This document shows, in pieces, positions 6,279-27,661 of a stretch of DNA of 48,841 bases. This DNA comes from Microcaldota archaeon. GTDB lineage: Archaea > Micrarchaeota > Micrarchaeia > Micrarchaeales > Micrarchaeaceae. The notes beneath the pieces were generated by a model. It had not been told where the DNA came from, searched no databases, and saw only the letters and a program-made list of their open reading frames with translations. Numbering within the stretch: position 1 is the first letter of the stretch; each line of letters opens with the position of its first letter. The stretch lies in NCBI GenBank assembly GCA_027317945.1, contig DAHVQB010000013.1:1-48841 (forward strand). Reading direction: 5' to 3'. The position numbers were made by a program, and so were the translations under genes.

Positions 6279-6403
6279 CCCAATTACCTGGCTTTTGCTA
6301 GCAGGGATGGCTGCAATATGCCACGGTAGGCGTAACCTTGCTGCCTTTTGGCCTTTCGCGTAAATGCTGGCCCAAGTCAAAGGATAGGGGATTTTTACAT
6401 AGA

Positions 6404-7936
6404 ATGGACAGGACAAATATGCGATCGGGATTGCTTAAACCTGCAGGATCTGGGATTAAGGCCCAGTCGGCGATGGAGTACCTGATGACCTACGGATGGG
6501 CAGTACTTGTCATCGCGATAATAGCCAGCCTGCTCATGGCATTTGGTATTTTTGACCTAGGGAACAGCAGCACCCCGAATTCTTGCGTTCCGATATCCGG
6601 GTTCGGCTGCAGCAGCCCGTCTTACACCACGAACGGCGTAAGCGCGGTGATAAGCGAAGGCGGCGGCTCGTATTACAACAATGCATGGGGATTCATAACA
6701 TCGGACAGCGAGCACATAGGCAGCTCCGGGCTGCCGGACAACTTCTCGACCTCAAGCACGGACAACATGGTACACCTGGGCATTTTAGCTCCAGGCCAGA
6801 CCGTCACATTGAACTACAGCGGTGGCGCATACGCAATGGCTGGCGATATACCTACAAACGAGCCCGTAGGCTATCCTTTTACCGGCTATGTTTGGCTAGC
6901 TTACTGCATGACACCCAACTGCAACGCGCCTACTAACTACGTTAAGATAGCTACCGTAGCAGTGCAGAATAACGGTGGGTCGTCATCATTAAGCGGGGGC
7001 GGCTCCTCGCAGACTGGCAGCAGCACGACTTCGACATCGTCTACGTCTACCACGTCCACCTCCACAACCAGCTCTACCACAAGCAGCACGAGCAGTACGA
7101 CGACTACGATAGGCACCACATACGACCCGATGGGCGGCTACACAGGAAGCAACAACATAATATTTGATTCCGGATCCAGCGGCTCCGCTTTGACCGGCAG
7201 CATAACCACTACGGCTAACATAACTATAGAATCCGGAGTATCGCTAACCAGCGAGGGATTCTCGTTCATTGCAGGAGGCAATTTCATAAATGATGGCACG
7301 ATTTCGACAGGATACGGGCCGGGCGGCGGCAGCGGATCCTCGGGCACGGGCACAGCCGGAACATCCGAGTCCCTTTCATACGGCGGGTCCGGCGGAGGCG
7401 GCGGCAGCAACGGCCAAGGCGGCGCAGGCGGCACTGCTCCGAATCCGGCACCGACACTGAGCCTAGTGCAGGAATGGGCAAATGATCCATTGGCGTACCT
7501 TTCCGGTGCGGGCGGCGGCGGAGGAGGAGGTTCAGGCGGCGGGGGAGGGGATGGCGGTTCGAGTATAGCCCCAGGAGGCGCCGGCGGCAGCGGCGGCGGT
7601 GCAGGGTGCGGCAGTGGAGGCAATGGCGGAGCAGGAGCACATGGCATTTACATACAAGCCTATTCGATTACCGCAGGGCAGATCCAAGCGCCCGGAGAAG
7701 GCGGGGGCGGAGGCAACATACCTGCCCCTGGAGGTGGCTGCGGAGCGGGCGGGGGCGGAGGAGGAGGAGGAGGCGCCATACTGCTAGCGTACTATTCATC
7801 TTATACGGCATCACCGACCTACGGAGGCGGCGCCGGGCAGGGAGGAACCGCAACAAACGGCCAGAATAACGGTGCCGGAGGCGGGGCGGGCCAGTTGATA
7901 CATTACCAGTACACCACACAGCCTGTGCCGACATGA
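6404..7936 (+). CDS. Class III signal peptide, glycine-rich surface protein (paralogue of 16155-17561)
   Basis: About 510 residues. The N-terminus has the archaeal class III (pilin-like) signal: a basic stretch ending GIKAQSAMEYL, then a hydrophobic helix (AVLVIAIIASLLMAFGIF). Cleavage before the Q-x-x-x-E segment by an EppA/FlaK-like peptidase is expected from the family. A small domain with two Cys (NSCVPISGFGC) follows, then a Ser/Thr-only linker (about 210-250), a beta-strand-rich segment, and a C-terminal half of GGSGGGGG-type runs. Start candidates are ATG 6404 and 6419. The Gly-rich half resembles bacterial glycine-rich PE_PGRS-like low complexity only in composition. Likely an exposed filament or S-layer-associated protein. 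Confidence 0.8.
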   Translation: MDRTNMRSGLLKPAGSGIKAQSAMEYLMTYGWAVLVIAIIASLLMAFGIFDLGNSSTPNSCVPISGFGCSSPSYTTNGVSAVISEGGGSYYNNAWGFITSDSEHIGSSGLPDNFSTSSTDNMVHLGILAPGQTVTLNYSGGAYAMAGDIPTNEPVGYPFTGYVWLAYCMTPNCNAPTNYVKIATVAVQNNGGSSSLSGGGSSQTGSSTTSTSSTSTTSTSTTSSTTSSTSSTTTTIGTTYDPMGGYTGSNNIIFDSGSSGSALTGSITTTANITIESGVSLTSEGFSFIAGGNFINDGTISTGYGPGGGSGSSGTGTAGTSESLSYGGSGGGGGSNGQGGAGGTAPNPAPTLSLVQEWANDPLAYLSGAGGGGGGGSGGGGGDGGSSIAPGGAGGSGGGAGCGSGGNGGAGAHGIYIQAYSITAGQIQAPGEGGGGGNIPAPGGGCGAGGGGGGGGGAILLAYYSSYTASPTYGGGAGQGGTATNGQNNGAGGGAGQLIHYQYTTQPVPT

Positions 7937-16154: not shown

Positions 16155-17561
16155 TTATGGAGTTATAGGTGCAGATGAGTACGTGCACGCGTAAGCAACC
16201 CCGTTGCCTCCGGCGCCTCCCTGACCGTAAAGGCTGCCGCCTCCCGCCGCGCCGCCGTTAACATTTAACGTTCCTGTGCTTGAATAGCTGCCGGAGCTGG
16301 AAGTGTCCACCAGTATTACGCCGCCGCCTCCGCCGCCGTTGCCCGCATTACCTGCAGTTGCTGCAGTGGCATTTGCATATATCGTTCCTGTATTGGTGAA
16401 TGAATATGCCTGTATGTAAATTCCATATTCCCCTGAACTCGGCCCTCCCTGGCTGGATCCGCTGCCTCCGCCCCCTGCATCCAGGTACTGCGCTATGGTA
16501 TTGCCATACCAAGTGCTTAAGCTTGACGTCATTGTAGAGCAGGATTCAGTGGGTGCGCTCTGGCCGTTGCTATATTGGCCGTTGACGTGGGGAGCTATGC
16601 CACCAGCAGCAACCAACGTGCTGCCGCCGTTGCCCGAGTTGCCGCCGCCGCCGCCGCCGCCTCCCCCGCCATAGGCATTCGGCTCGTTGCCTCCGGCGCA
16701 GTAGTTGCAATTTGGAGCCTGGTTCCCAACCTGGCCGGTATAAATGCTTCCGGCATTGGTGAATGCGCCGCCTGCTATTATGGAATAGCTATCTGTAGTA
16801 AGCGACACTCCGCTGTCTATTTTTACGGTGCCGGTGGTCTTGATGTCGCCGGATAATGTCGTGACACTACTGAATTCCACATTCTGCGTGCCAGAATATG
16901 AAGTCGGATTGTATATCGGCGGGCTTATTGTAGTGGTGGAGCTTGTGGTGGTAGAGCTCGTCGAAGTGGAAGTTGTAGAGCTTGATGTGGAAGAAGTCGT
17001 GGTAGATTGCGAGATTGTGAAAGCGCTTGCGCCAGAGAACTTCGTGTTGATTGTGCCTATCCTCGTGTAAGAGGTTGGTATGTTGCAGTTCGGGACAGTG
17101 CAGTATCCCAGCCATACGTATGCAGTCAAAGGCTGTCCAACCAGAACGTTAGCGGTCGGTATGTCACCCGCCTGCGCATTAGTGAATTCGACCGTTGCGG
17201 TCTGCCCCGGGGTCAATGCGCCTATGGGTATCATGTTAGCGGCAAACGACATGTTCTCAGGTAGTCCGTTGCTGTCGAGATGCTCTGAAGTAGATGACAC
17301 GAACACCCAGTCCCCATAATAGTACTGCCCTGACTCCTGCCCTACAGTAAGGACTATCCCGTTGGGAGTGTAAGAAGGATTTGAGCAGATGAAACCTGTC
17401 TGCGGCGTGCAACCTTCTGGCAGGTTGGATGACGACTGTCCGAACAGGCCGAGAGCGAAGAGCAGGGCCGCCACGATAGCTATGACAAGTATGGCCCACC
17501 CATAAGTCATCAGGTACTCCATCGATGATTGGGCTTTGGTACCTGATTTGTTACCGCACAT
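16155..17561 (-). CDS. Class III signal peptide, glycine-rich surface protein (paralogue of 6404-7936)
   Basis: 468 residues. The leader GNKSGTKAQSSMEYL plus an AILVIAIVAALLFALGLF helix is the archaeal class III (type IV pilin-like) signal. Next come the same two-Cys motif (EGCTPQTGFIC), an HLDSNGLPENMS segment shared with the other copy (HIGSSGLPDNFS), a Ser/Thr linker around 185-210, a beta-strand stretch with IDSGVSL also found in the paralogue, and glycine-rich runs at the end. The shared order shows a duplicated gene family. Likely a filament or envelope component exported and processed by a prepilin-type peptidase. Confidence 0.8.
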   Translation of the reverse strand: MCGNKSGTKAQSSMEYLMTYGWAILVIAIVAALLFALGLFGQSSSNLPEGCTPQTGFICSNPSYTPNGIVLTVGQESGQYYYGDWVFVSSTSEHLDSNGLPENMSFAANMIPIGALTPGQTATVEFTNAQAGDIPTANVLVGQPLTAYVWLGYCTVPNCNIPTSYTRIGTINTKFSGASAFTISQSTTTSSTSSSTTSTSTSSTTTSSTTTISPPIYNPTSYSGTQNVEFSSVTTLSGDIKTTGTVKIDSGVSLTTDSYSIIAGGAFTNAGSIYTGQVGNQAPNCNYCAGGNEPNAYGGGGGGGGGGNSGNGGSTLVAAGGIAPHVNGQYSNGQSAPTESCSTMTSSLSTWYGNTIAQYLDAGGGGSGSSQGGPSSGEYGIYIQAYSFTNTGTIYANATAATAGNAGNGGGGGGVILVDTSSSGSYSSTGTLNVNGGAAGGGSLYGQGGAGGNGVAYACTYSSAPITP

Positions 17562-17638: not shown

Positions 17639-17646
17639 TTTAAATA
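17639..17646 (+). promoter_or_regulatory. TATA box for the first transglutaminase cassette
   Basis: TTTAAATA, a perfect match to the archaeal TATA consensus, 39 bases before the GTG start at 17685. It implies a very short leader and a cassette with its own promoter. Confidence 0.6.
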
Positions 17647-17684
17647 CGTATACTGATTGTATTAGATAATAGATAAGTGGTTTC

Positions 17685-17969
17685 GTGGCTGGCATAGGTG
17701 CCCCTATTTCCATAGGGATGAAGATACTGCTTCACGGCAAGGCACTCGCCATTAAGGCAAATAACGCGGAGCTTACTGCCAAGTTTGACAAGTCTATAGC
17801 GGATTTGGACCAGTATATCAAGAGCGGCCACACCACCCTTGATGACAAGGCCAATAGCATAGTATTCGAACCGTTCGGCGGGGTCGAGCATGAATTTAGG
17901 GAAGAGGCGATGTCAGGGATCGGCGATGACGGTATGGTTGTGCCCAAGAAGCCCAAACATGGGAAGTGA
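17685..17969 (+). CDS. Unknown ~94-aa protein, partner of transglutaminase-like protein (copy 1)
   Basis: 94 residues, not recognised. GTG start; the choice is supported by the paralogue at 24123-24407, whose ATG falls at the same place. Both copies share a hydrophobic N-terminus (GIGAPISIGMKIL versus TGIPIVIGMRIL), then FDKSI..L..Y.K.GH.TLD, an A..I...PF.G patch and an EEA segment. The N-terminal hydrophobic stretch is short and broken by charged residues, so a membrane anchor is uncertain. The transglutaminase-like gene starts 22 bases downstream. Because it is coupled to that gene in both cassettes, it may be its substrate, inhibitor or adaptor (inference). Confidence 0.75.
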   Translation: MAGIGAPISIGMKILLHGKALAIKANNAELTAKFDKSIADLDQYIKSGHTTLDDKANSIVFEPFGGVEHEFREEAMSGIGDDGMVVPKKPKHGK

Positions 17970-17991
17970 TTATGTTTTATAAGGTGCGGCG

Positions 17992-19281
17992 ATGGTCGAA
18001 ATAAAAAAGGAGAAACATGAGACAGCTGAGTTTTCCAGTGTCGAAGACATGGTTGATTATCTGCGGTCCGCAAATATTGCGGTTAAGGATAGGGTAGATG
18101 TAGTACTAGACGTGGACGGAAACCAGAAGAATATAACATTTGAAAGGCGCAGCAACCCGGATGGGTCGAGAGGAGGATTCGTAGCGACCAGCGTTTCGAG
18201 ATTAAACATAGCATCCTCTTACGTAGACAGCACGGCAGTTATATACGGCAATTTTGACATAATTAATTCGCATATAGGCCCTAATGCGACCGTAATATCG
18301 CTGGGAAAAGACACAGTTTACGCTAACGGGGACCAGAATGTTATAATAGACACCGACATAGGGATGGACAGCACGCTGAAAGCCCTCGGAAAGAAGAGCT
18401 GCATAGTGCTTAGGGGCGCCATGATAGGCGATCAAGTCGACATCGATGTCCAGAAGGGCAGGCTCTACATAGCAAGAGCTACAGTAGGAAACAGCGTAAC
18501 TACGGAAACGTTGGTGTCGGATCCCGGTAACCTTGAGATATTGACTATTGAAGAGGCAGTGATTGGCAGGTACAGCAAGATATCGCTTGACAAGCAGCCG
18601 CCTAGGCTGGGCATATCCAACCTGAACATACCGGAGCGCTCTGCGATAAGTATCGATATGGACAACTATGCCATGGAAGTCCAGCAACCAGGGAAAATGC
18701 CGAACGATCCGTATACCGTAATAGTGCCAACGCCAACAAACCATACGCTAGAGGCTTTCATAAAAAGCGCAGAGAAGTATGCCAACAACATGTCGCTTAC
18801 GCCAAAATACATTTCGCAATTGCAGATGTTTGCCGGAAACGCGAAGAGGCTCAAGAAACTGGAGATGGTGATACTGCTTGCAAAGTACGTTTATGACACG
18901 ATACCGTACGATGGTACGACCTATGAGAAATATGGCGACCCGGCCAACGTGCCTCTCGACTACTTCATAAAGAACAAGGGCGGCGTATGCTTCGAGCACG
19001 CACTGCTTCTTTATGAGATACTCGAGAAGGAGAGGCAGGATGGGACTCTTGACGTGAAGCCCATGTTCGTTACGGGCGCAGCCATAGGGAAGGACGTAGA
19101 TTCGCTCCACGCGTGGGTCGAGGTGGAGATAGACGGGGAGGTATTCGTCATGGACCCGACCAATCCAATGCCTTACACGATTGCAGGTATGAGGGACATC
19201 AACAACGGTTTCATAAGGATCTACGGCGTGCCGGGTTATGACTACGTATACGATGGGCAGCCAGCGATAAAGCCGCTGTAA
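17992..19281 (+). CDS. Transglutaminase-like cysteine protein with N-terminal repetitive beta domain (copy 1)
   Basis: 429 residues. Residues ~80-230 form short strands spaced by Ile-Gly turns (STAVIYGNFDIINSHIGPNAT, TDIGMDSTLK, GAMIGDQVDID, EEAVIGRYSKISL), in the manner of a beta-helix or bactofilin-like solenoid. The C-terminal half has the transglutaminase-like triad: C333 in GGVCFEHALLL, H373 in LHAWVEVE and D388 in FVMDPTNP. No signal peptide, so it should act in the cytoplasm. It follows a 94-aa gene by 22 bases. The paralogue at 22666-24102 has the same architecture and triad. Activity could be protein cross-linking, deamidation or peptide-bond cleavage; none is shown. Confidence 0.8.
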   Translation: MVEIKKEKHETAEFSSVEDMVDYLRSANIAVKDRVDVVLDVDGNQKNITFERRSNPDGSRGGFVATSVSRLNIASSYVDSTAVIYGNFDIINSHIGPNATVISLGKDTVYANGDQNVIIDTDIGMDSTLKALGKKSCIVLRGAMIGDQVDIDVQKGRLYIARATVGNSVTTETLVSDPGNLEILTIEEAVIGRYSKISLDKQPPRLGISNLNIPERSAISIDMDNYAMEVQQPGKMPNDPYTVIVPTPTNHTLEAFIKSAEKYANNMSLTPKYISQLQMFAGNAKRLKKLEMVILLAKYVYDTIPYDGTTYEKYGDPANVPLDYFIKNKGGVCFEHALLLYEILEKERQDGTLDVKPMFVTGAAIGKDVDSLHAWVEVEIDGEVFVMDPTNPMPYTIAGMRDINNGFIRIYGVPGYDYVYDGQPAIKPL

Positions 19282-19293
19282 TAGTACGCGTAC

Positions 19294-19977
19294 CTAAGCC
19301 AGCAAGGTATACCATATAAGAGGCAGCCATGCAGTTATTCCGGCCCGTGCTGATGTTGTCCAATAGTTCGCTTCTGTGTCATATGCACCGTCGGCGAACA
19401 ACCTTTTGACAAATTCCCTTAGTGGTTCGACCAAATCCTTTAAGACGCTTGTATCGGCAACTTTACTATCAGTTACTTTCACACCGTAAACCCTCTTTGT
19501 ATGGGCGTCCACGATTATGTGAACTTTCTTCCACTCCTTCACTTTTCCATATTTCATGCTCCTGTACTCTCCATCGTTCCTACTTTTCCAACCGGAAGAG
19601 TCTATCTATACCTCCAGGTTCCTTCCAGACTGTTTTGTACGCACTTCTAAACCGTATTTTTGCAGGTTTATAAGTCTCCAATTTATAGTCCGAAAGTTTG
19701 GTACCTTCTTCAAATGGAAGAAGGCCTTTAGACCCTTTACGAAACCTTCCAACTGTCTATACCCTATCTTGAAGGCACATTTTACAGTGAAGAAACCGGC
19801 TATTATTCCATCGCTAAACCGAAAAGGAGCGCCAACCTTATGCTTATTCTTTGTTTTCAACTCCTCCAACTGCATTTCTGCAGCAGGTGATATCCGTACT
19901 ATTATGTTTCCTCTGTCTACCAACCGCTGGCTATACAAATTCCAATCTCTACTATATTGCTGCATACTGTTCGCCAA
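19294..19977 (-). pseudogene. IS4/IS5-superfamily DDE transposase, broken by an in-frame stop and 3' truncation
   Basis: The frame from ATG 19977 reads a transposase N-terminal domain (YSRDWNLYSQRLVDRG... to GLEVRTKQSGRNLEV), then TAG at 19603-19605, then continues in the same frame with IDSSGWKSRNDGEYRSMKYGKVKEWKKVHI. The stop directly precedes the first catalytic Asp (IDSSGW); the second is in LFADGAYDTEANY. The frame ends 30 codons later, 13 bases from the stop of the convergent transglutaminase gene, without the final catalytic Glu region, so the 3' end is lost. Start could be 19965 (MQQYSRD). It is an inactive remnant. Confidence 0.8.
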
Positions 19978-19989
19978 GATTAGTATGCG

Positions 19990-20012
19990 CCTAGAGGTTT
20001 AATACCTCTAGG
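19990..20012. repeat. Perfect 8-bp hairpin CCTAGAGG-7 nt-CCTCTAGG
   Basis: Arms at 19990-19997 and 20005-20012, loop TTTAATA. It lies 13 bases upstream of the broken transposase start and may be part of the IS left end or a terminator blocking read-through into the IS. The surrounding stretch from 19978 to 20288 holds no convincing gene; it also has a weaker inverted repeat (gcatag...ctatgc) near 20128-20148. Confidence 0.7.
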
Positions 20013-20288
20013 AAATAGTGGGATTATTAGACAATGTCGCCCGTGCTTACCGTTTCGCAAGATATTTATATTAGGTATACAGATATCTTCCAACATCCAC
20101 TGCGTGCGCATGAGCACATAGGTGGGCATAGCCATATGCGCTATGCGATTCGGTACCAACGCATGGAACTGCCATCGAGACAACGAGGTTGCACCCTTTT
20201 GGGTTCGGCCATTGACTTAACGGTCCTGCGTGTTTTTCAATTTTTAAGGTGCTGATGCCGAGCGGCAGAGCTACGAGCTGGGGATTGC

Positions 20289-20666
20289 ATGGTAAACGCC
20301 ACGAAATACAACGACTTTGGGAACATACAGCAGACATACGCAGGAGCAGCGTACCTCAGGATAGAGCATCCGCAGTACGATGAAAAGGAACTGACAAAAG
20401 CAAGCCCGAAGAGCATACTCAAGCTAATGGATGCAGTCAAGGAGGGGAACGCCCCGAAGCACGAGATACTCGAACTGCTTGGGAAGGTCAACAAGGTCGC
20501 ACCGGGCGAAACGGAAAAACTGCTAAAACGCTACAATAAGAAGGACATAGAAGGGTTCGCCGATTTCCTATACAAGACCAAGAACGAAAAGGCGATAAGG
20601 GACCTCACCTATGTGGTCATAGGGATACTGAAAACCATGGTCTTGAAGGACTATATGCGCAAGTAA
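20289..20666 (+). CDS. Hypothetical helical protein (125 aa)
   Basis: 125 residues, not recognised. The start ATG 20289 (MVNATKYNDFGNIQQTY) follows a T-rich, TATA-like CAATTTTTAAGG about 35 bases upstream. From residue 36 the sequence is charged and helical (KELTKASPKSILKLMDAVKEG, then KHEILELLGKVNKVAPGETEKLLKRYNKKDIEGFADFLY written here as separate helices), with no Cys and no membrane segment. It may bind nucleic acid or protein. The SIMPL gene starts 62 bases downstream in the same direction. Confidence 0.6.
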   Translation: MVNATKYNDFGNIQQTYAGAAYLRIEHPQYDEKELTKASPKSILKLMDAVKEGNAPKHEILELLGKVNKVAPGETEKLLKRYNKKDIEGFADFLYKTKNEKAIRDLTYVVIGILKTMVLKDYMRK

Positions 20667-20728
20667 AGGCGTAACGTTGCGCAACGAATAAATAGTTTGG
20701 TTGCGCACTCTTTTTTTAGTGTGATTCT

Positions 20729-21460
20729 TTGGACGGATCGGCTAGGACATTTGATATAAGCATTGCAGCAGTTGTTATACTGATTGTAGTAATCGCATTG
20801 GCGCTGATGAACGGGAAAGGGGGCCAGACGAATGAAAATGCATCCAGGATAAGCGTAACCGCGACTGGTACCGCTTACGCCTACCCCAGTTCTGCAATCA
20901 TGTACATCCTTGTAAACGGATCTGGCAGCAGCACGCTCGAGGCGACATCCAACATATCCGCTACGCTGGTCGAGTTGAACCGCTCAATCTCGCCTTTCAT
21001 AGATGGCAATCTCAGCAACGTGAAGACGACTTCGTACAACATAGGCAGGTCATACAACGCGAGCCGCAACAAGACTCTATACGCTGCAGTCGAATCAATC
21101 AGGATATCAATCCCGTCAGTGGACAACGTAAGCGCGTTGATCGGTACGCTTTCGGGCATACCTAACACTTATGTCACATCGGTATCGGCGCAGCTTACCG
21201 GTGCGCAGGTAAACGCGCTGAGGCAGCAGGCGCTTTCGCTGGCACTGCAGAATGCGACACAGCAGGCCAGTACACTTGCAGGTGGGCCGGTTTCGCCCGG
21301 AAACATCACAGTAAACAGCTATGCTTATTATCCATTAGGGGCAAGTGGCAGCTTCCAAACTTTCTCCCAGACAGTAGCCGGGGCGGTGCCGGAACCATTC
21401 TTCTCTGCGGGAAGAGGCAGCGTGACCGAGAGCATATCGGTTGCGTTCTACCGCAATTGA
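20729..21460 (+). CDS. SIMPL (DUF541) domain protein, membrane-anchored
   Basis: 243 residues from TTG 20729, the only start that includes the whole membrane helix (residues 8-27, DISIAAVVILIVVIALALM). The exterior part begins RISVTATGTAYAYPSSAIMYILVNG, the typical first strand of SIMPL, and ends with TESISVAFYRN, the usual closing strand. A conserved long helix with ALSLALQNATQQAS precedes it. It has many N-x-S/T sequons, consistent with outside location. SIMPL proteins occur in envelopes of bacteria and archaea without a settled function. A 43-aa Cys-rich protein gene follows 16 bases later. Confidence 0.85.
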   Translation: MDGSARTFDISIAAVVILIVVIALALMNGKGGQTNENASRISVTATGTAYAYPSSAIMYILVNGSGSSTLEATSNISATLVELNRSISPFIDGNLSNVKTTSYNIGRSYNASRNKTLYAAVESIRISIPSVDNVSALIGTLSGIPNTYVTSVSAQLTGAQVNALRQQALSLALQNATQQASTLAGGPVSPGNITVNSYAYYPLGASGSFQTFSQTVAGAVPEPFFSAGRGSVTESISVAFYRN

Positions 21461-21476
21461 TGGGCGGTGTGTTTCC

Positions 21477-21608
21477 ATGGCTAATCAAGGCGCTGGCGCA
21501 GGATGCGAATGTGGAGGGGGATGCATATGCGGCTGCAGGAGCGGCTGCGCATGCAAAGCGGGGTGCGAATGCGGATGCACGTGTGGTGAAAGGAGGGCAG
21601 GCAACTAA
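21477..21608 (+). CDS. Metallothionein-like Cys-rich microprotein (43 aa)
   Basis: ATG 21477 to TAA 21608 encodes 43 residues with 11 Cys and 11 Gly, in CxC arrangement: GCECGGGCICGC, then SGCACKAGCECGCTCGE. No His and no aromatic residues; charged residues sit at the C-terminus (ERRAGN). This composition is that of metallothioneins that bind Zn, Cu or Cd through thiolate clusters. It lies 16 bases after the SIMPL gene and may be translated from the same message. No known metallothionein family motif was recalled that matches exactly, so the metal role is inferred from composition and spacing. Confidence 0.65.
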   Translation: MANQGAGAGCECGGGCICGCRSGCACKAGCECGCTCGERRAGN

Positions 21609-21634
21609 ACCTTGTCTGGTTCCCTAGTCTATGG

Positions 21635-22504
21635 CTACATGAAGTATGACAGCGTTATTACCCCTGCGATTGCAAGCACCATACCCGCCCACTGGTTCGA
21701 CTCGGGCCTCTCCTTCAATAGTATTACTGCAAAAACGATTAGGAACAGTGTTGCCATCCCGGATAATGCTGACACTATGGGCAGCGCTGCACTCTGCACC
21801 TGAATCCCGTATGCAAAAGAAAGGGTGGCGAATGCGTCCGTGATCCCGGCTCCTGCCACATATGCGATGTAAGGTTTCCCAGGAGGGGCCATGTCCTGCT
21901 TTGCCATGCGCCCTGTTATGAAGCCTCCGGCTGAAGCAACGACCCTCCATATCATGCTTAGCAGTGCAAAACCCAATATCGCGGCGTAGGGTCCGGAGTA
22001 TATTCCCGGAGCGGCAAACATGACCATAGAAACAATTGCGCTTCCGACTCCGGCAGCCAGGACGGTACGCCCTTTTTTCAGCTTGCTGAACTTCGTAGAT
22101 GTGAGTATCATGCCTACCAATATTGCAGCTATGGAAACTTCCTGGATAAGATTTAGCACATCGCCAAACGCAAACACCGCCACGACTACCGTGATGAGCG
22201 GATACGAATAGGCTATCGGCGCTATTATTGACAGGTTGCCATACTTGAATGCCCTGTACAGGAATAGCTGCCCTATGAAAAATCCGATTGCAGAGAGCAC
22301 CGCCAAGAATATTACGAACCAGTTTATGCCGGTGCCAGTCCCAGTGATGAGAAGGAACGGCAGTATGGTCAGCATGCTGAAAAGCATCGAGTAGGCTATG
22401 GCATTATAGTGGCCCAATACCCGCACGGGCTTGCTCACTAGATAATCGGACAAGCCCCAGAAGAATGCTGCGGAGAGCCCGGCGATTATCGGGATGAAAG
22501 CCAT
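21635..22504 (-). CDS. EamA/DMT superfamily transporter
   Basis: 289 residues with ten predicted membrane helices in two five-helix halves. The first half begins IIAGLSAAFFWGLSDYLVSKP and ends with LFLYRAFKYGNLSIIAPIAYSYPLITVVVAVF; the second ends with the equivalent LSFAYGIQVQSAALPIVSALSGMATLFLIVFAVILLKERP. That duplicated pattern, with the E(R/K) at the end of helix 9, defines EamA proteins, which export metabolites or amino acids. Substrate unknown. It is convergent with the Cys-rich protein gene. Start ATG 22504 is well placed against the family. Confidence 0.85.
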   Translation of the reverse strand: MAFIPIIAGLSAAFFWGLSDYLVSKPVRVLGHYNAIAYSMLFSMLTILPFLLITGTGTGINWFVIFLAVLSAIGFFIGQLFLYRAFKYGNLSIIAPIAYSYPLITVVVAVFAFGDVLNLIQEVSIAAILVGMILTSTKFSKLKKGRTVLAAGVGSAIVSMVMFAAPGIYSGPYAAILGFALLSMIWRVVASAGGFITGRMAKQDMAPPGKPYIAYVAGAGITDAFATLSFAYGIQVQSAALPIVSALSGMATLFLIVFAVILLKERPESNQWAGMVLAIAGVITLSYFM

Positions 22505-22566
22505 GGTTCAACAACCTCTGCATATTTTGTCAGATTCGGACCTGTGGCTTACGTATACAGAAACAT

Positions 22567-22640
22567 CGCCCTTGCCGGGATTTGAACCCGGATCACAGGC
22601 TCCGGAAGCCCACGTTCTATCCAAGTTATACTACAAGGGC
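22567..22640 (-). tRNA. tRNA-Arg(CCG)
   Basis: On the minus strand the acceptor GCCCTTG (from 22640) pairs with CAAGGGC (to 22568), discriminator G at 22567. The anticodon loop is TTCCGGA, giving anticodon CCG, closed by a stem with two wobble pairs; the T arm GGGTTCAAATCCC is canonical. No CCA is encoded and no intron is needed to fold it. It sits between the DMT transporter and the second transglutaminase gene. Confidence 0.9.
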
Positions 22641-22665
22641 TCAGCGCGACATATACCGATCCTGC

Positions 22666-24102
22666 CTAGCCCCGCTTGTTTATACCGGTCGGCGCTGCCG
22701 GAATCGGAGTTACCAATGGGGCGCCGTCCGGCCTGTAGTCCCAGTCTATCAATGGACCGGAGCTGACGAAACTTCCGCTCTTGGTCCTCTTGCCTGCAAA
22801 CATGAACGGGCTGGTTGCATCTATCACGAATACCTTGCCGTTTATCTCAACCTCCACCCATGCGTGCCATGAAGCGACGTCGTCGCTCTTTGCGAGCCCG
22901 GTAACGAAATGCGGGGTCACTTTGCCGCCCTGCATTGCCAGCTCCTTCTCCAGTATAGTATAAAGGAGGAGGGCATGCTCGAAGCATATCCCCTTACCCT
23001 TGTCTATGAAGTAGTCGAGCGGTATGTCAAGTACGTCCTTCGTATACTTGTCGGTTATGTCCCCATACTTTATGTTGTCGTATACGTACTTCGCTATCAG
23101 TATGGTGTGCTGCAGCTGCTTCGCTGAATCCGCATCTAGCTTGCCGAGGAGGCTCTGGTCCACGGTTTTCGGCAGCTTGTGGGTATTGGCGTAATCCTCA
23201 GCGTCCTTGGCAAACTTTGAGAAGACAGGATCGTTTAGCAACGGTATGCGCACCTTGTAGAATATGTTGGATTGTGTGCCATCCAGCGTAACCGGTATGA
23301 AGTAGTTGCGCGGGTCCACTGTAACTTTTGAATTGGCCGGCACATTTGCACTCAGTATCCTAAGCCTTGGAGAGCCGGCTTCAAGTTTTATCCTGCTGTT
23401 GCTGCCTATCTCTGAATCATCTATGTCCAATACCTTTATGCTGATACTGGGTGAGGCGCCCTTCAAATCCTTGGAGCTTGCATATGGGCTCATGAAATCG
23501 CGCAAAGCCTTGAAGTTGGGCGGATTTTCTGGCAGGTCGGCATAGGATTCCAGGACCACGCCGCTGTGCACGGTGGATCTTACTATGTACAGTATGCCCT
23601 TGCCTATGTTGAGGCTCACGTCATCCTCTATGTTGGTCATGTCAAGAACTATCGGGCCCAGCACTCCGCCGGACCGTATGTTAACGCGCGAGCCTATCGC
23701 TGTATCCTCTATGTAGGACTGCGCCTGGCCCAGTGCGAGGACTGACGAGTTCGGGCCTATCTTTGAGTTTACTATCTTGACATTGCCGTATACGACAGCG
23801 GTGCTGTCTATGAATGTGTCTTCCGGCTGCATATCGCTCCCGTAGATTGACTTGGCGCTGAGGTTCTGGTCTATAAGGCCCCCGACGCTGCCATCAGGGT
23901 TCCTGTAGCGCACGAAACTAAGTTGGCGGCTTTCGCCACCGGTCAATAGCGTGACTGTTACGCTGTCCGCACCGGCCGCCATGCTTGACCTCAAGTAAGC
24001 GAGCATGTCGGCTTCGCTCCCGAATTCCGTCGAATCTTCCGCAATGGCCTCCAGCAGTTTCTCGTTCTTCTTGACATTCGGTACAGCCTGTTTTTCTGCC
24101 AT
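22666..24102 (-). CDS. Transglutaminase-like cysteine protein with N-terminal repetitive beta domain (copy 2)
   Basis: 478 residues from ATG 24102 (MAEKQAV); ATG 24123 would overlap the stop of the upstream small gene by one base (TAATG) and add seven residues. Architecture is that of copy 1: a helical N-terminus with MLAYLRSS, a solenoid-like region with Ile-Gly turns (STAVVYGNVKIVNSKIGPNSS, DTAIGSRVNI), then the transglutaminase-like core with C373 (GICFEHALLL), H413 (WHAWVEVE) and D428 (FVIDATSP). The region between the solenoid and the catalytic core is about 40 residues longer than in copy 1. No signal peptide. It is translationally close to the 94-aa partner gene. Confidence 0.8.
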   Translation of the reverse strand: MAEKQAVPNVKKNEKLLEAIAEDSTEFGSEADMLAYLRSSMAAGADSVTVTLLTGGESRQLSFVRYRNPDGSVGGLIDQNLSAKSIYGSDMQPEDTFIDSTAVVYGNVKIVNSKIGPNSSVLALGQAQSYIEDTAIGSRVNIRSGGVLGPIVLDMTNIEDDVSLNIGKGILYIVRSTVHSGVVLESYADLPENPPNFKALRDFMSPYASSKDLKGASPSISIKVLDIDDSEIGSNSRIKLEAGSPRLRILSANVPANSKVTVDPRNYFIPVTLDGTQSNIFYKVRIPLLNDPVFSKFAKDAEDYANTHKLPKTVDQSLLGKLDADSAKQLQHTILIAKYVYDNIKYGDITDKYTKDVLDIPLDYFIDKGKGICFEHALLLYTILEKELAMQGGKVTPHFVTGLAKSDDVASWHAWVEVEINGKVFVIDATSPFMFAGKRTKSGSFVSSGPLIDWDYRPDGAPLVTPIPAAPTGINKRG

Positions 24103-24122
24103 AATAATCAACTCAATAAGCA

Positions 24123-24407
24123 TTATTCAGTCCCGTTCCCGTTCCCTATCAGCTCAGCCAACTCGTTTATGTCTATAGTTGCATGAGCTTCTTCCTCCAA
24201 GGCGAACTCGCCCTTAAATGGTGCGGATATTATCGCGCCGGCATGGGTGTCTAGGGTGCTATGGCCCTTCTTTTCGTAGCTTTTCAATTCCTCTATGGAC
24301 TTGTCGAATTTAGGAAGAAGATATGACTTGCCTTTCTGTTGCGCGAGCTCCCTGCCCCTTGCGAGTATGCGCATGCCAATTACTATCGGTATCCCTGTGT
24401 CTGCCAT
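24123..24407 (-). CDS. Unknown ~94-aa protein, partner of transglutaminase-like protein (copy 2)
   Basis: 94 residues, MADTGIPIVIGMRILARGREL start. It keeps the conserved FDKSIEELKSYEKKGHSTLD block and the APFKGEF...EEEA patch of copy 1, while the C-terminus diverges (acidic ELAELIGNGNGTE versus basic PKKPKHGK). The transglutaminase gene begins at or just after its stop, tighter than the 22-base gap in the other cassette. Conservation of gene order in two diverged copies says that the two proteins work together. Function unknown. Confidence 0.75.
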   Translation of the reverse strand: MADTGIPIVIGMRILARGRELAQQKGKSYLLPKFDKSIEELKSYEKKGHSTLDTHAGAIISAPFKGEFALEEEAHATIDINELAELIGNGNGTE

Positions 24408-24508: not shown

Positions 24509-25036
24509 ATGGGTTATTACATAATAGTAAGGGGGCCCCTTGGAGCGGGAAAAACAAGCATAGCAGTGACGCTTTCCAGGAGGTTGAGGGCAGAACGCAT
24601 AAGCATAGACGAGGTGCTTGAAGCCAACCACCTCGAAGACGACATTGAGGATGGGTATATATCGCAGAGAAGCTTCATCAAGGCCAATGAGATAGCAGCG
24701 CAGAAGGCGAATGATGCCATGGACTCTGGCGCCATAGTCATATTCGATGGTAATTTTTATTGGAAGTCGCAGCTAGACGACCTCCAGGGCAGGCTCAGGC
24801 GCAATGGGTATGTGTTCACGCTCAAGGTACCGCTCGATGTGTGCATCTCAAGGGACGGGGGCAGGGCCAAGCCCCTTGGAATCGAAGCCACCAGGGAGGT
24901 GTATGAGAAGACAACGTCGTTCGAATACGGAATTGATATAGATGCAGCGGGAACGCTTGAAGACGCGATTGACAGGATATTGTCGTTCATCAACAGCAAG
25001 GACCCAGCCACAGATATAACCATGAGGCATACCTGA
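24509..25036 (+). CDS. P-loop NTPase/kinase (AAA_33-like)
   Basis: 175 residues. Walker A is RGPLGAGKTSIAVTLSRRL (residues 8-26). A Walker B-like IVIFDGNFYW follows, and an R-rich lid with ISRDGGRAKPLGIEATREVYEK, a layout of small-molecule or nucleotide kinases such as adenylylsulfate, gluconate or shikimate kinase-like proteins. IDEVLE after strand 2 may bind the phosphoryl acceptor. The substrate cannot be named. It is divergent from copy 2 of the 94-aa gene. Confidence 0.75.
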   Translation: MGYYIIVRGPLGAGKTSIAVTLSRRLRAERISIDEVLEANHLEDDIEDGYISQRSFIKANEIAAQKANDAMDSGAIVIFDGNFYWKSQLDDLQGRLRRNGYVFTLKVPLDVCISRDGGRAKPLGIEATREVYEKTTSFEYGIDIDAAGTLEDAIDRILSFINSKDPATDITMRHT

Positions 25037-26677: not shown

Positions 26678-27661
26678 TCAGTGTTTCATTACTTTCAATT
26701 GCACACCGCTATTATTTGCCGTCATCTTTGCTGTTCCGCCTATCGGGAATGTTATTTGCGGAGCGGTATGCCCGAAGTCTGCACCTGATATTACAGGTAT
26801 ACCGTCCAACTCTCTCTTTGTCTTGATTATCTTATCCAGCAATTGCTGGGTCATGCTGGATGCCTTTTGGAACCTTCCAATTACTAACCCCCTTACTGTT
26901 TCGAAGCCGGGCTGATGTATCAATGACTGCAAGTCCCTGTCAAACGTATGCGGGCGTGTCTCTTCATCATCTTCCAAGAAGAGTATACTGTTTTTTATGT
27001 TTGGCATATATTGTGTGCCTTGAAGCAGATTGAAAGTGCATAAATTGCCTCCTATTATCATTCCTTGCGCCTCGCCCTGGTTGATTACACGATAGCCCTC
27101 GTTTTTTATGAAATGTCTGTCCTGCTGGTCCTTATACCACGGGTCATCGCTCCACTCCTTTGCCGCCACCACCTCAAATGGTCTTGAAGACATCAGGCAC
27201 TTCTGGAAATATTCTGCTGTGAATTCGAACCCAAGCTCCATCCCAAAGGTAGAGAAATGGGGCCCATAGTACGTAATAAGGCCCGTTTTGGCATAAATAG
27301 CATTTGACAGGGCAGTTATGTCAGAGTAGCCGCAGAGTATCTTGGGGTTTTCTTTTATGAGTTTGTAGTCGAGATATTTCAGTAATTGGTTGGAGTTGAA
27401 ACCCCCTATAACAGTGAGTATCCCTTTTATTTCCCTATCGCTGAAAGCCCAATTGATGTCCTCAATGCGGGATTCTATAGAAGACGAAACAAAATCGTCG
27501 CTTTCTTTTATGTGTTTCCCGTACTCTACCTTCAATCCCAATCTTGTGAGGGCTGAAATCGCAATCTTTTGCCCATTCTCACTTATGATACGCATACTTC
27601 GGGCTGGAGCTATGACTGCAACATGATCTCCACGCCTCAGCCTCTTTGCAACTATGGCCAT
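26678..27661 (-). CDS. LD-carboxypeptidase/MccF-like protein (peptidase family S66)
   Basis: 327 residues. The family triad is visible: Ser113 in the nucleophile elbow GYSDITAL, Glu231 in ILFLEDDEE and His299 in ADFGHTAPQ. The N-terminus (GDHVAVIAPARS) and ILTVIGGFNSNQLL are also typical. S66 enzymes remove the terminal D-Ala from murein tetrapeptides, or in the MccF group cleave the amide of microcin C7-like aminoacyl-nucleotides. Archaea of this kind lack murein, so the second role, or scavenging, is more plausible here (inference). It lies alone on the minus strand upstream of tRNA-Thr. Confidence 0.9.
   Translation of the reverse strand: MAIVAKRLRRGDHVAVIAPARSMRIISENGQKIAISALTRLGLKVEYGKHIKESDDFVSSSIESRIEDINWAFSDREIKGILTVIGGFNSNQLLKYLDYKLIKENPKILCGYSDITALSNAIYAKTGLITYYGPHFSTFGMELGFEFTAEYFQKCLMSSRPFEVVAAKEWSDDPWYKDQQDRHFIKNEGYRVINQGEAQGMIIGGNLCTFNLLQGTQYMPNIKNSILFLEDDEETRPHTFDRDLQSLIHQPGFETVRGLVIGRFQKASSMTQQLLDKIIKTKRELDGIPVISGADFGHTAPQITFPIGGTAKMTANNSGVQLKVMKH

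Follow-up and report, generated by a model that had tools for sequence, protein, structure and literature searches.

VASH2 is a transglutaminase-like cysteine enzyme, a tubulin carboxypeptidase, that works together with the small helical partner SVBP; the vasohibin-SVBP pair is eukaryotic, with a non-canonical Cys-His-Ser triad, a single-helix partner and no beta-helix (PMC6642083). CPR-C4 is a transglutaminase-like protease of small-genome bacteria that has no partner, forming a homodimer with a Cys-His-Leu(carbonyl) triad and, again, no beta-helix (PMC9108980). None of the papers searched names Micrarchaeota together with transglutaminase. The stretch of DNA analyzed here, 48,841 nucleotides in all (the window), belongs to a Micrarchaeota metagenome-assembled genome (MAG) of 678 kb, estimated to be 72% complete. 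It carries two paralogous two-gene cassettes, A and B, inverted relative to each other; contig C11 of this genome holds a third. The cassettes represent a real, lineage-restricted enzyme-plus-partner family, kin of the transglutaminase-like proteins. Their features are the following.

17639 to 17649, plus strand: TATA-like element TTTAAATACGT upstream of cassette A, a putative promoter
17685 to 17969, plus strand: small protein A, 94 aa, predicted to form four helices
17992 to 19281, plus strand: large protein A, 429 aa, a beta-helix joined to a transglutaminase-like domain
18190 to 18687, plus strand: predicted left-handed beta-helix region of large protein A, about residues 67-232, from the strand pattern of the model and YdcK-like homology
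18739 to 19236, plus strand: transglutaminase-like domain of large protein A, about residues 250-415, from PF04473, the model, Foldseek and the triad
22666 to 24123, minus strand: large protein B, 485 aa (478 aa if translation begins at Met8, 24102)
24123 to 24407, minus strand: small protein B, 94 aa
24434 to 24444, minus strand: TATA-like element CTTAAATACAC upstream of cassette B, a putative promoter

The initial annotation had described two diverged copies of a two-gene unit, and this was borne out: the open reading frames lie at these coordinates, and the two copies are homologous in both genes, with 46.8% identity over 79 aa for the small proteins (E 2.5e-16) and 38.4% identity over 456 columns for the large ones (E 6e-89). 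Spacing would also be similar if large protein B started at Met8, which would leave a gap of 20 nt to the small gene, compared with 22 nt in cassette A. A TATA-like TTTAAATA or CTTAAATA element lies 5' of both small genes. An extended form of this promoter pattern has two sites in the window, both at the cassettes, against 0.26 expected; the pattern was written from those very sites and thus does not constitute independent evidence.

The large proteins are related to transglutaminase-like proteins by several lines of evidence. Both exceed the cut-off of PF04473 (DUF553), with 26.8 bits for A and 30.6 bits for B (cut-off 20.5), and for PF01841 (cut-off 23) large protein B is above the cut-off with 24.6 bits and large protein A below it with 22.7. 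The predicted structure of large protein A contains a confident transglutaminase-like domain, and Foldseek matched this model to 3isr, a cysteine protease, and to 4xz7, a TGase, at a probability of 1.00 but modest E-values (4e-4 to 8e-4), in agreement with the fold first proposed; VASH-like structures appeared low in the ranking (E 0.15 and worse). The intact C-H-D triad noted at the outset was located, on the papain-like fold, at C333/H373/D388 in A and C380/H420/D435 in B, and its Cys, His and Asp are conserved in all 13 aligned large-protein rows. The absence of a signal peptide was likewise upheld, as neither protein has a hydrophobic N-terminal segment; the maximal 19-residue Kyte-Doolittle means, 0.85 in A and 1.13 in B, lie elsewhere than at the N-terminus.

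The repetitive beta region of the first description corresponds to a left-handed beta-helix in the model of large protein A, where this half is of medium confidence (pLDDT about 50-88), and is further supported by homology to YdcK-like stand-alone proteins. The N-terminal part of the large proteins has homologues in other Micrarchaeota that are proteins in their own right and share an RHxNPDGxxGGFV cap followed by hexapeptide-like repeats, and the large-protein profile picks up these stand-alone GGFV proteins through its N-terminal positions. Some of the stand-alone GGFV-cap proteins score above the YdcK repeat model PF18836, and their profile matches the solved YdcK structure 2f9c at 7e-18. 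Large proteins A and B themselves gave no match to PF18836, B having a sub-threshold Hexapep match only, and neither matched Bactofilin (PF04519). The beta-helix protein and the transglutaminase-like domain are also found apart within the order, and the large enzyme probably arose by fusion of the two. Tandem pairs of stand-alone GGFV-cap beta-helix genes were also observed in other Micrarchaeota (L042, 1378-1881 and 1966-2607; L045, 717-1358 and 1447-1965).

The small protein was modelled with a mean pLDDT of 77.8 as helices at residues 8-24, 28-46, 54-64 and 69-77, followed by a low-confidence C-terminal tail that is disordered and variable beyond about residue 80. It gave nothing significant in searches against Pfam, NCBIfam, PHROGs, PADLOC, PDB sequences, PDB folds and viral folds, and no DNA-binding domain was found with the Pfam and NCBIfam profiles. 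In an alignment of 11 sequences few positions are invariant, these being mostly hydrophobic, aromatic or glycine, with no Gln or Lys among them. The GH(T/S)TLD block to which attention had been drawn is present in both A and B; in the wider family it is only partly retained, with G48 invariant and H49 and D53 nearly so.

Profile searches covered 301 genomes of the phylum, and an all-species scan used exact peptide patterns of one protein. The two families are co-inherited, occurring in an identical set of 6 of the 301 genomes. An adjacent small gene accompanies 11 of the 14 full-length large genes, and 11 of the 12 intact small genes adjoin a large gene; the 94-aa family is thus mostly found next to the transglutaminase gene, and the fixed pairing that had been assumed gains support. 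These operon-like pairs sit in several unrelated neighbourhoods. Within this lineage the cassette has multiplied as a whole. In G049 the order is swapped, the large gene coming first and the small gene starting about 4 nt after its stop. No hidden small gene was found near the three unpaired large genes, and a partner is therefore not needed beside every enzyme gene. The lone intact small gene is that of G004 (contig C12), and a 13th small gene, in G001 without a nearby large gene, is a pseudogene remnant. The lone G004 gene was considered as a partner of the B-like large gene that stands unpaired elsewhere in G004, as its best scores would fit (66 bits with B types); the tree left this unresolved and the assignment was not adopted.

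Relatives detected by tblastn occur in the Candidatus Micrarchaeota MAGs FK3.bin83 and MAS5.bin21, whose cassette A copies sit on contigs sharing 99.4% identity across 4.5 kb (L017 1957-6478, L018 140-4659). The two MAGs are classed as two species, so one of these contigs may be misbinned; counting the two copies once leaves 13 large genes, 11 small genes and 10 pairs. Phage, plasmid and viral collections contained no full-length relative.

The two families also show matched divergence. Their distance matrices correlate with r 0.95, a value reached in none of 20,000 permutations, and the small-family distances track the transglutaminase domain most closely (r 0.96, vs. 0.75 for the cap). Between B orthologs the small protein is no less conserved than the enzyme (78% compared with 67%). 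In the ortholog pairs for which it could be computed, dN/dS was about 0.05-0.22, with dS near saturation; these values indicate purifying selection on both families in the measurable pairs and hence that the cassette frames are real genes.

The DNA between the cassettes contains transposase remnants and genes for a 125-aa protein, a SIMPL-domain protein and an EamA transporter. A broken DDE transposase (PF13737 fragment) lies directly 3' of cassette A (19294-19977, minus strand). The 125-aa gene, which belongs to no family, and the SIMPL (DUF541) gene occupy 20289-21460 on the plus strand; in L017, cassette A is followed by DNA resembling this stretch, and the B cassette of L074 also has a SIMPL gene beside it. 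Divergent from small gene B is a small AAA/shikimate-kinase-like P-loop gene (24509-25036, plus strand), with a similar gene in the same place in L074 (3545-4078). Further along, at 26678-27661 on the minus strand, is an LD-carboxypeptidase/MccF-type peptidase S66 gene (PF02016, PF17676); peptidoglycan is not expected in this archaeon. Proteins with a class III signal peptide (SSMEYLMTYGWAIL) are encoded at 16155-17561 (minus strand) and 6338-7936 (plus strand). A link of the cassette to such genes was considered and rejected, as 25 of them occur in the 678-kb partial genome and their adjacency is therefore unremarkable; several lie at contig ends, and some are identical over 64 residues.

It is proposed that the cassette specifies a cytoplasmic two-component enzyme, composed of a transglutaminase-fold large subunit and a bound small helical subunit with a chaperone or regulatory role, a reading that has about an even chance of being correct. 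The large subunit would be a cysteine enzyme acting as a peptidase, amidase or transamidase, and its YdcK-like left-handed beta-helix would probably oligomerize or recognize the target. The four-helix small protein, usually encoded first in what would be a shared transcript, may bind the enzyme and act as its chaperone or regulator, loosely in the manner of SVBP with vasohibins. A more ambitious version, possible if rather doubtful, is a lineage-specific Micrarchaeota system of protein modification or proteolysis, in which a beta-helix-scaffolded enzyme depends on a helical subunit from a novel family and targets a defined set of cellular proteins. If the complex is real, it would be a case of a transglutaminase-fold enzyme in a prokaryote having a small helical subunit dedicated to it, and would provide a function for a gene family that occupies as many as four loci in a ~1-Mb genome.

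Other explanations have been weighed. The two proteins might share a pathway or their regulation without touching each other. Genes in close linkage diverge together whether or not their products touch, and linkage alone would then explain the matched trees; three large genes and the intact small gene of G004 also have no partner beside them. The pairing nevertheless survives in unrelated neighbourhoods and in swapped order, and the phyletic sets of both families are identical, which makes this explanation rather unlikely. The initial annotation had also raised a toxin-like module with a dedicated inhibitor, that is, a toxin-antitoxin or conflict system whose enzyme would harm a cell protein and whose small protein, made first, would neutralize it. 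Such a system is quite unlikely, since the small protein is highly conserved rather than fast-evolving and, as indirect evidence, three enzymes persist without an adjacent partner, even though the genes are adjacent and tightly spaced with the small one usually first, the distribution is patchy with several paralogs per genome, a transposase remnant adjoins cassette A and one small-gene copy has decayed. In addition, the enzyme is large, the order is swapped in G049, the small protein has no PADLOC match and no DNA-binding domain, and no phage or plasmid carrier was found.

A dedicated substrate was the other role suggested for the small protein, which would then be cross-linked or cleaved, for example as the precursor peptide of a leader peptidase. 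Its fixed pairing with the enzyme and its disordered, variable tail could be read in this manner. However, the alignment offers no invariant Gln or Lys for cross-linking, and the whole helical part is conserved, whereas a precursor would have a core that varies. The lasso-peptide B2 family PF13471 was not reached either (13.4 and 15.1 bits, cut-off 26), and no biosynthetic genes occur among the neighbours; a substrate role is thus quite unlikely.

Compared with known systems, the window enzymes share with the transglutaminase-like superfamily (PF04473, PF01841) the fold, the Cys-His-Asp triad, the HAW motif and a PF04473 score above the cut-off, but they differ in their fusion to a beta-helix and in having a small helical protein as partner in the cassette. 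With the YdcK left-handed beta-helix (PF18836; PDB 2f9c, 2pig) they have in common a GGFV/GGWV cap followed by hexapeptide-like strands, whereas they do not themselves match PF18836 and carry an enzyme domain. CPR-C4 is likewise a transglutaminase-like cysteine protease from small-genome prokaryotes, although, in contrast to its partnerless homodimer with a Cys-His-Leu(carbonyl) triad and no beta-helix, the window enzymes have Cys-His-Asp and a small partner gene. The vasohibin-SVBP system offers the same combination of a transglutaminase-like cysteine enzyme beside a small helical partner. It differs in that the window enzymes have a beta-helix, Asp as the third triad residue and a partner modelled with four helices rather than one; by these last two features the window enzyme is not a vasohibin. 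The vasohibin-SVBP precedent does indicate that an arrangement of enzyme plus small partner can work.
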